Shown here: positions 2,987 to 4,960 of the stretch, piece after piece | How the letters are laid out: every line of letters begins with the position of its first letter | Position numbering within the stretch: position 1 is the first letter of the stretch | From: Clostridiales bacterium | GTDB taxonomy: Bacteria; Bacillota; Clostridia; Oscillospirales; Ruminococcaceae | DNA: 10,211 nt | Assembly (NCBI GenBank): GCA_012799315.1 | Contig: JAAZLM010000144.1 | Location: forward strand, 1 to 10,211 | Direction of reading: 5' to 3' | The notes under the pieces: generated by a model | What the model was told of the DNA's origin: nothing | Databases searched by the model: none | The model's input: only the letters and a program-made list of their open reading frames with translations | Made by a program: the position numbers and the translations under genes

Positions 2987-3325
2987 CTACATACTAATTA
3001 CTTTATAGCCGTCATTAACGTAATTTTTCATTCCTGCGTGTCCTGACATATCGCTTAACATTGGTAGTCCGATGTTGCTTACATCATCATATATGCCAAG
3101 TACCTTTGAACAGGCGGTGCAAATGCCGGCGATCAGTCCGCTTTCTTTAGCCTTTAAGTATAGGGGGTTCTGCTCTTTCTCAAAAATAGTGACGAGCTTC
3201 ACGGATGCACCTTCAAATATAATCTTCACCTCAGAGCCATCTTGAGCTAGATCCAGCGCATTTAACAAAATGTGTTGAAAGCACATTTTTTCACCCGTCA
3301 TACCGTAGAATAAAACTTTCTTCAT
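2987..3325 (-). CDS. DsrE-like small cytoplasmic protein with CxxC
   Basis: This 112-residue protein resembles the DsrE/DsrF-like group of small soluble proteins often found in Clostridia. The group is linked to sulfur relay or redox chemistry, but this subfamily has no settled function. It starts with a beta strand and loop, MKKVLFYGMTGEK, then MCFQH (C15), KIIFEGASVKLV, NPLYLKAKESGLIAGICTACSK with a CTAC motif (C69, C72), and GLPMLSDMSGHAGM near 86-99. There is no signal peptide or membrane segment. ATG 3325 is preceded by AAGGAG at 3333-3338 with a 7-base spacer. It lies 21 bases after guaA and 86 bases before proB on the same strand, so it is probably cotranscribed with guaA. The CxxC suggests thiol chemistry; that is inference. 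Confidence 0.8.
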   Translation of the reverse strand: MKKVLFYGMTGEKMCFQHILLNALDLAQDGSEVKIIFEGASVKLVTIFEKEQNPLYLKAKESGLIAGICTACSKVLGIYDDVSNIGLPMLSDMSGHAGMKNYVNDGYKVISM

Positions 3326-3346: not shown

Positions 3347-4870
3347 TTACTCCCACTCAATTGTTGATGGTGGTTTTGATGTAATATCGTATACTATTCG
3401 GTTAATTGAGCCTGCCTCATTCACGATCCTTTTGGAGATTTTATCAAGCACATCGTACGGGATACGTGCATAATCCGCCGTCATAAAATCATTTGTCACC
3501 ACTCCACGTAGCGCAAGTGTATAGTCATAGGTTCGCTGTGCCTTTGTCACGCCGACAGAACGCATCGATGTAAGAACACAGAAATATTGATGTATCTGTT
3601 TATCAAGTGACGCTTTTGCAATTTCGTCTCTGAATATGAAATCAGCCTCACGTAGTATTTCAAGTTTCTCAAATGTAATATCGCCAATAATTCTAATAGC
3701 AAGACCAGGGCCGGGGAATGGTTGCCTGAACACTAGCCTTTCGTCCAATCCTAGAACTAATCCCAATTGGCGAACCTCATCTTTGAATAGTTGGCGGAGT
3801 GGCTCAATAATCTCCTTGAATTCTACATGATCGGGTAGCCCGCCGACATTGTGATGACTTTTTATTAATGCGGCATCTCCAGCGCCGGATTCAATCACGT
3901 CGGGATAGATAGTTCCCTGTACTAGGAAATCGACAGTGCCGATCTTCCTTGCCTCATCTTCAAAAACACGTATGAATTCTTCGCCAATTATCTTTCTTTT
4001 TGTTTCCGGATCGCTAATACCGCTCAGCCTATTGAGGAAGCGCTCCCCAGCATTTACACGAACAAGGTTTATATCCCAATCGGCGAATGCGTCCTCGACT
4101 TCGTCACCTTCATTTTTACGCATAAAGCCATGATCAACAAAAATACAGCTGAGCTGATCGCCAATTGCCTTTGAGAGTAATGCCGCTGCAACAGAGCTAT
4201 CGACCCCTCCCGATAGGGCAAGAAGAACCCTCTTATTGCCGACGGTTTTGCGAATATTATCAATTGATGCTTTTGCGTAGCTTTCCATTGTCCAATCGCC
4301 AACACAACCGCAAATACTATATAAGAAATTACGCAGTATCTTTGATCCGTTCTCCGTATTGCTAATTTCGGGATGGAATTGCACGCCGTAGAATTTCCTG
4401 CTGCTATCCTGAATTGATATAGTGGGAATATCATCCGAATTTGCAATTGTATCAAAATTATCGGGAGTAGTGTCAACATAATAGTCCCTACTCATCCATG
4501 TCCTGCCACAACTGGGTAACCCATCGAACAATGTAGATGAATTATCGAAAGAAGCGACAACTTCACAATATTCATCGTCATTTGATGAGGAGATACTACC
4601 GCCGAATGCCCTTGCCATTAAGTGCATACCGCTGCTAATTCCTAGAATAGGAACATCGATCTCCCATATGCCATTATCTATTTCACGCAACTTATTGCTA
4701 GAAGTATCACCTATTATAATAATACCGACGGGATTCAGTTTCTTAATTTTCTCTAGTGGGATAGTGTAGGGATGCACTTCACAATAGACATTGCATTCAC
4801 GTACCCTCCTAGCTATTAATTGGTTGTTCCTGCCGCCTAAATCAAGAATTAAAACAAATTGATTTTTCAT
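3347..4870 (-). CDS. guaA: GMP synthase with degenerate glutaminase domain
   Basis: GuaA converts XMP to GMP using ATP and ammonia, normally drawn from glutamine. From ATG 4870 the protein has 507 residues, close to the usual ~510. The C-terminal two thirds are intact: P-loop LALSGGVDSSVAA near 218-230, FVDHGFMRKNEGDEV, QGTIYPDVIESG, IKSHHNVGGLPD, FRQPFPGPGLAIRIIGD and the closing DITSKPPSTIEWE. The N-terminal amidotransferase fold is present (QLIARRVRECNVYCEVHPY and FHPE with H166, E168), but the nucleophile motif reads GISSGMH where the family has GICYGMQ, so Cys is Ser at residue 79 (codon AGC, 4634-4636). The oxyanion region reads IIGDTSS in place of SGGP, and MSRDYY replaces MSHxD. Ammonia dependence is inferred. 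The frame is open upstream to TTG 4927 (19 more residues), but neither start has a good ribosome site. ATG 4870 matches the family N terminus. Confidence 0.93.
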   Translation of the reverse strand: MKNQFVLILDLGGRNNQLIARRVRECNVYCEVHPYTIPLEKIKKLNPVGIIIIGDTSSNKLREIDNGIWEIDVPILGISSGMHLMARAFGGSISSSNDDEYCEVVASFDNSSTLFDGLPSCGRTWMSRDYYVDTTPDNFDTIANSDDIPTISIQDSSRKFYGVQFHPEISNTENGSKILRNFLYSICGCVGDWTMESYAKASIDNIRKTVGNKRVLLALSGGVDSSVAAALLSKAIGDQLSCIFVDHGFMRKNEGDEVEDAFADWDINLVRVNAGERFLNRLSGISDPETKRKIIGEEFIRVFEDEARKIGTVDFLVQGTIYPDVIESGAGDAALIKSHHNVGGLPDHVEFKEIIEPLRQLFKDEVRQLGLVLGLDERLVFRQPFPGPGLAIRIIGDITFEKLEILREADFIFRDEIAKASLDKQIHQYFCVLTSMRSVGVTKAQRTYDYTLALRGVVTNDFMTADYARIPYDVLDKISKRIVNEAGSINRIVYDITSKPPSTIEWE

Positions 4871-4960
4871 CTTTGCAATTACTGCCTTTCCGACTTTGAA
4901 TTTTTTTAAGTCTATATTACAAGTCAATGTATCTGGATTTTAATATGCATTATAAACTAT

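Follow-up and report, generated by a model that had tools for sequence, protein, structure and literature searches.

A GMP synthase with a predicted inactive glutaminase domain in a Clostridiales genome, and related glutaminase losses in its genome and family

In the GMP synthetase of Plasmodium falciparum, the available part of PMC4673825 describes the C89A mutant as inactive with glutamine and still active with NH4Cl (kcat 63 versus 55 per min, Km 8 versus 19 mM), and by analogy a GMP synthase that has lost its nucleophile should be a competent ammonia-dependent enzyme. The same portion of PMC4673825 reports that glutamine inhibits the ammonium-dependent activity of this enzyme, and that when its synthetase domain is isolated, kcat falls 5.9-fold and the Km for NH4Cl 2.7-fold. 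Three motifs of GMP synthetase involved in cross-talk are named in a figure legend of PMC10526850. Our literature search found no description of a bacterial GuaA with a dead glutaminase, and one may still be in print.

The guaA gene and its glutaminase half

The window, by which we mean the whole stretch of DNA that was analysed (10,211 nucleotides), carries guaA on its minus strand (3347..4870), encoding a GMP synthase of 507 aa whose frame starts with an ATG at 4870 and closes with a stop codon ending at 3347, the ORF being open further upstream to a TTG at 4927. The protein scored 694 bits against NF000848 (cut-off 400) in the NCBIfam scan, its best PDB sequence match was 5tw7 (E 6.5e-154), and it has the features of a GuaA, namely an intact ATP-pyrophosphatase P-loop (SGGVDSS, 4193..4213, in invariant columns), an intact lid loop (SHHNVGG, 3839..3859, by motif reading) and a GMP_synt_C domain, with the C-terminal residues of the synthetase half also kept. 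The synthetase domain (ATP-pyrophosphatase plus dimerization; residues 185-507, 3350..4318) is conserved, matching PF00958 and, with 464 bits, TIGR00884 (cut-off 339). The window's genome (G000; 1.26 Mb in 287 contigs, 78.7% complete, 2.94% contamination) yielded guaA as its sole gene with a PF00958 match; the search for a second, intact guaA suggested by the original prediction thus found none in the 78.7% that is present. In a FastTree tree of the synthetase half, the smallest supported set containing the window's enzyme held 7 rows, the other 6 of them intact, while in a second tree made with the MGD columns (see below) removed no supported set surrounded it and the nearest listed rows were intact GuaAs. 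Directly downstream of guaA lies a 112-aa ORF (2990-3325, minus strand) with no Pfam or NCBIfam match. Positions 1706-2206, also minus, encode a protein that matches the fluoroacetyl-CoA thioesterase family FlK (PF22636, 121 bits), beside an ORF which we take to resemble proB, and an Rfam search of the window returned no RNA element at the gathering threshold.

The class I glutaminase (GATase) domain (residues 1-184, 4319..4870; PF00117, 112 bits) is predicted to be inactive. At the nucleophile the gene reads GGA ATT AGC AGC GGT ATG CAC, that is GISSGMH, in which Ser79 (AGC, 4634..4636, read from 4636 to 4634) replaces the catalytic Cys and leaves the Cys-His-Glu triad incomplete. This substitution was as originally predicted, and so were IIGDTSS in place of the oxyanion loop (4697..4717; xTGGPxS in most relatives), WMSRDYY (MSRDYY at 4478..4495, where relatives have MSHxDx) and the retention of FHPE, which holds the triad His and Glu (4367..4378). 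Further changes were LGGRNNQ where relatives have FGGQYNQ (4820..4840), Tyr80 to Ser (4631..4633) and Gln83 to His. Among 70 first-round relatives (L006-L075, several of which are one contig fetched from two collections), the Cys, GGP, WMSH and the His/Glu pair were kept in all 70 and Gln83 in 69; the remaining one, L020, is otherwise intact and shares the His, so the change at Gln83 proves nothing by itself.

Conserved columns were counted leave-one-out, at a threshold of at least 95% conservation among 48 non-redundant relatives, and 17 of the 55 in the glutaminase half had changed in the window's protein, compared with 4 in the next-highest sequence. Mean identity to 37 relatives was 47% for the glutaminase half (60-69% among the relatives themselves) and 76% for the synthetase half (75-84% among the relatives). 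The synthetase half had been described as fully conserved, which proved too strong, since 7 of its 145 conserved columns differ and three of these are adjacent (MGD to TKA, residues 442-444, 3539..3547). Judged from these sequences, the synthetase half still looks functional, the glutaminase half should be unable to hydrolyse glutamine and is probably unable to bind it, and the label glutamine-hydrolyzing is not applicable to this GuaA because Ser79 replaces the Cys.

An AlphaFold2 model of the protein, made with 33 sequences, had a mean pLDDT of 81.1 and a pTM of 0.78, with pLDDT of at least 80 in 14 of the 18 ten-residue blocks of the glutaminase half; it fell below 50 at residues 57-60, which straddle the end of the oxyanion loop. 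The whole model resembles bacterial GMP synthases (5tw7, TM 0.86) and its glutaminase half matches the glutaminase domain of human GMPS (2vpi, TMt 0.92, rmsd 1.7), and on the strength of these two matches the class I glutaminase fold is predicted to survive. The cross-talk motifs given in the legend of PMC10526850 are kept in the window as RRVRE, DVIES and KDEVR, and we infer that the retained dead domain still docks on the synthetase.

With the synthetase tree of 62 taxa kept fixed, the window's enzyme had a glutaminase branch of 1.50 substitutions per site, where its synthetase branch would predict 0.96; this excess was the second largest of the 62, after that of L232, which is also dead. 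The ratio of glutaminase to synthetase branch was 3.6 (median 2.6), with at least eight taxa above it. Targeted selection on the active-site motifs was considered and rejected, as changes fell in 12 of 31 motif columns and 8 of 34 other conserved columns (p = 0.28). Because the ratio is not extreme, the changes are not significantly concentrated in motifs and the domain is truncated or missing in related lineages, the data fit relaxed constraint just as well; of the original view that this was a real, selected change, the first part held and the second found no support. The mild acceleration would suit a domain under relaxed constraint that the need to fold still keeps in check.

Glutaminase losses in the genome and the family

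The GuaA finding is one tip of a wider, repeated glutaminase loss in both the genome and the family. AsnB-1 (contig C267) begins MSGYVG at a position where all 29 relatives fetched, out of a longer list of full-length matches, have the Cys; it is also without RRLSI and Asp97, and has changed at 15 of 83 conserved glutaminase columns (others at most 4). Its synthetase half is fast as well, with 10 of 151 conserved columns changed where the others show no more than 6. AsnB-2 (contig C18) begins MGTIAG, with the Cys present in 13 of its 13 nearest fetched relatives at 38-48% identity. CarA (contig C209) reads FHPN, in which the triad Glu is lost, and SSGGGDP, with 12 of 68 conserved glutaminase columns changed (others at most 4, except the dead L105 with 21/73), and may be only impaired since its Cys and His are kept. 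As both AsnB nucleophiles and the triad Glu of CarA are lost, GMP, asparagine and perhaps carbamoyl-phosphate would draw on ammonia in this organism. The lineage is fast in general, its CarA end branch measuring 0.67 against a median of 0.35.

In the same genome, the glutaminase sites of PurF (HEECGVFGI) and of the PyrG fragment (GICLGMQ, QFHPE) appear intact, so the cell must still make or import glutamine. Three proteins of this 78.7% complete genome match PF00117, namely CarA, the window's GuaA and the PyrG fragment, and no separate GuaAa-type glutaminase was found among them; likewise there was no match to glutamine synthetase and none to GlmS above cut-off (best E 2.5e-31). At 78.7% completeness, the unrecovered remainder of the genome may contain an intact guaA, a partner glutaminase or a glutamine synthetase. 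Tetranucleotide composition agreed among contigs C36, C209, C267, C18 and C259 (r 0.84-0.91, compared with at most 0.51 against five relatives), while the short C114 piece that carries PyrG gave r 0.66-0.72, and its membership is less sure because different relatives reach 0.74 between themselves.

In an alignment of GuaA from 213 related loci plus the window, the full triad was present in 188 rows and missing from 26, the window's included. Two further full-length domains are dead, those of L232 (genome G053; FRPE and WIGQ, with the Cys kept) and L286 (G017; FYPE and GICFDGG), and three are truncated remnants (L109 of G021, L111 of G105 and L278 of G149). Each of these five comes from another genus, with a fused GuaA whose glutaminase is dead or truncated by different changes. 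A further 18 synthetases have no in-frame glutaminase part (L112, L114-L126, L128, L129, L131 and L288, of which L128, L129 and L131 are fragments), and no glutaminase-like ORF was found beside them at any of the 18 loci in the flanking sequence fetched, which reached about 1.5 kb at most. The remaining rows were L113, a masked locus whose frame shows the triad, and L110, a cut piece. A domain in decay would be expected to produce such a series, from intact through dead and truncated to absent. Named relatives included Oscillospiraceae, Ruminococcus and uncultured Clostridia MAGs, one of them from roe deer rectum.

A total of 197 genomes were searched, of which 170 could be scored, 146 as intact, 23 as lost and 1 as unknown. 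Parsimony required 6 changes between the intact and lost states on both trees (4 are forced by supported branches on the first tree and 3 on the second); this count leaves out L110, which if scored as lost gives 7 on the FastTree tree. Three genomes (G146, G134 and G021) hold two guaA-like genes each.

The CarA survey searched 80 genomes and examined 75 rows of 68 genomes, lower-listed fragments being left out, and found 57 rows intact, 17 dead (the window's genome included) and 1 cut. The dead rows outside the window's genome, 16 of 74 (L105, L293-L295, L297-L300, L302, L303, L306, L320, L331, L334, L335 and L342), had Cys to Gly in 14 of 16 and had lost the triad His in 14 of 16; some genomes with a dead CarA also hold an intact one. 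The CarA tree gave 11 changes, 4 of them forced by supported branches. By genome, GuaA loss and CarA death coincided in 6 cases, with 1 genome lost and intact (G017, whose GuaA glutaminase is dead), 5 intact and dead, and 45 intact for both, so that CarA was dead in 6 of 7 GuaA-lost and 5 of 50 GuaA-intact genomes (Fisher p = 8e-5, uncorrected for relatedness), the 7 including the window's own genome and three with standalone synthetases. Taken as independent pairs, the link comprised 4 with none contrary, a number that cannot reach significance.

Loss of glutamine synthetase was considered as a driver and rejected, given a weak family-wide link (absent in 3 of 23 GuaA-lost versus 3 of 145 genomes, p = 0.034 uncorrected) and a glutamine synthetase match retained in G021 and G105, both of which have lost the GuaA glutaminase. 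Absence of GlmS was commoner with GuaA loss (11/23 versus 27/145, p = 0.005 uncorrected). Individual genomes differed in this respect: G017, 96% complete, had no match to PF13522 (class II glutaminase) yet had partial matches to the GlmS model, and G060, listed as 100% complete, had no match to the GlmS model.

The MGD turn of the synthetase half

The three adjacent residues changed in the synthetase half belong to VGV-MGD-xR, which holds the hairpin turn joining a pair of long strands in the dimerization domain (model residues 428-442 and 445-459; block pLDDT 66). In the whole-genome set, 134 of the 143 enzymes whose triad is intact had MGD; of the 21 whose glutaminase is dead, truncated or absent, none did. 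GD was kept by 142 of the 143, eight of the nine without MGD among them, and by one of the 21, L232. These counts omit four intact rows gapped at this site, the fragments L128, L129 and L131, and L110 and L113, both of which read MGD. All 15 synthetase-only GMP synthases with a readable turn are without MGD. Fisher's test gave p = 9e-20 for the association when relatedness was ignored; once relatedness was accounted for, 3 independent pairs existed, too few for the link to reach significance.

GD is also kept in five aligned solved enzymes outside the family, those of E. coli and N. gonorrhoeae having MGD, that of A. baumannii VGD, and those of Coxiella and the split M. jannaschii subunit KGD. 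We suggest that the turn may be an element coupling the two halves, freed from constraint once the glutaminase is dead. We found no literature linking the GVMGD turn to GMP synthases, and it offers a concrete site for mutation in well-studied members by which the coupling of the two active sites could be probed.

Nitrogen source, alternative readings and known systems

Taken together, we consider it likely, with good confidence, that the window's GuaA is an ammonia-dependent GMP synthase whose dead glutaminase serves as a scaffold en route to loss, in a lineage where ammonia is taking over from glutamine in the synthesis of GMP, asparagine and perhaps carbamoyl-phosphate. The gene would be the housekeeping GMP synthase of the organism, its synthetase half adenylating XMP and aminating it with free ammonia from solution, which by analogy with the P. 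falciparum mutant would be its sole nitrogen donor; the glutaminase half would fold, dock and stay as a scaffold, on a path that ends in truncation or deletion as in the relatives. If the glutamine inhibition described in part of PMC4673825 applies here, loss of the glutamine site would lift it and so could be favoured, and since the isolated synthetase domain in that source has a lower kcat, the dead domain may still help, with a modest advantage. Ammonia-rich gut habitats would favour such an enzyme, habitat ammonia being a conceivable driver. The original prediction had offered free ammonia, ammonia borrowed from another amidotransferase, or a dead domain kept for structure or regulation; the first combined with a scaffold fits best, and the spare class I glutaminase that borrowing would call for was not found in the 78.7% complete genome. 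Neither the linked change in the synthetase half nor the parallel losses in AsnB and CarA had been part of that prediction.

More tentatively, and with slightly more doubt than confidence, we propose that a lineage of gut-type Clostridia has moved its GMP synthase, both asparagine synthetases and carbamoyl-phosphate synthetase onto free ammonia through repeated, independent disabling of glutaminases, and that the VGVxGD turn is needed only for glutaminase coupling, so that its loss marks ammonia-only GMP synthases.

Other readings fare far worse. It is improbable that this guaA has ceased to make GMP, as a decaying copy or a gene with a new function, while an intact guaA went unassembled: the incompleteness of the genome, the few relatives with two guaA-like genes and the three adjacent changes in conserved synthetase residues would allow it, whereas the synthetase half is close to its orthologues in degree of conservation, keeps its P-loop, lid and C-terminal residues, groups with the orthologues and belongs to the only PF00958 gene found. 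We give equally little weight to a glutaminase acting in trans, in which another amidotransferase would feed ammonia to this enzyme as archaeal GuaAa does for GuaAb. Archaea do have split GMP synthetases, according to the part of PMC10526850 available, and the cross-talk motifs are kept here; against this stand the mere three PF00117 proteins found in the 78.7% complete genome, the GD turn, which is lost in the window and kept in the split M. jannaschii subunit, the flanks of the standalone synthetases and the likelihood that the enzyme's own glutaminase domain would still fill the docking site. A glutaminase that still works, through a Ser nucleophile or relocated residues, is very improbable despite the retained triad His and Glu, because the oxyanion loop and MSH motif have changed too, Cys to Ser abolishes glutamine use in the class II enzymes PurF and AsnB (in the portion of PMC3261824 at hand), and human CPS1, with the same Cys to Ser change, does not use glutamine, although other changes may contribute there (PMC4655335, in part). 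An artefact of assembly, base calling or binning can be dismissed almost entirely, fragmented and slightly contaminated though the assembly is, given the many scattered, independent in-frame substitutions in the glutaminase half, the linked MGD to TKA change in the other domain, the parallel losses in AsnB-1, AsnB-2 and CarA on other contigs and the matching composition of five contigs, all of which bear out the original judgement that the loss is real and not a base-call error.

An ammonia-dependent GuaA of this kind bears on how such genomes are read. Annotation models call GuaA, CarA and AsnB-1 glutamine-hydrolyzing, all three passing the NCBIfam cut-offs (411 bits against 307 for CarA and 458 against 267 for AsnB-1), and metabolic models that follow these names would assign the wrong nitrogen economy. 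Glutamine-analogue inhibitors act on the catalytic cysteine, and enzymes without it, such as the window's GuaA, should resist them. With several enzymes of one genome losing the same side activity, the case is also a natural experiment on the conditions under which channelling of nitrogen from glutamine becomes dispensable, as it did for vertebrate CPS1.

Compared with two-domain bacterial GuaA (NF000848; E. coli 1GPM), the window's enzyme has the same domain order, predicted fold, synthetase motifs, lid and C-terminal residues, and one copy was found in its genome; it differs in having neither the catalytic Cys nor the oxyanion-loop and MSH motifs, in its TKA turn and in being predicted to use ammonia only. 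The split archaeal GuaAa and GuaAb are alike in that the synthetase can use external ammonia without the glutaminase, as stated in the part of PMC10526850 available, and unlike in having a working glutaminase partner, none of which was found in the window's genome. Single-domain NadE likewise performs its amidation on ammonia and not on glutamine; glutamine use there is said in the available portion of PMC3376133 to have been gained by recruitment of a glutaminase, whereas in the window's GuaA it would have been lost. Archaeal PurF' proteins are amidotransferase relatives without the N-terminal Cys for which ammonia dependence is one possibility offered in the part of PMC3261824 at hand, and differ in that their genes lie near purF, while the window's genome shows the loss in the single GuaA and the two AsnB that were found in it. 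Human CPS1 also retains a dead class I glutaminase domain with Cys to Ser and takes its ammonia from the surroundings (PMC4655335, in part), which for the window's GuaA is predicted only; CPS1 belongs to a different synthetase switched by N-acetylglutamate, and in the present bacterium the losses extend to several enzymes. With its nucleophile lost and its fold, as modelled, retained, the window's GuaA resembles vertebrate CPS1.
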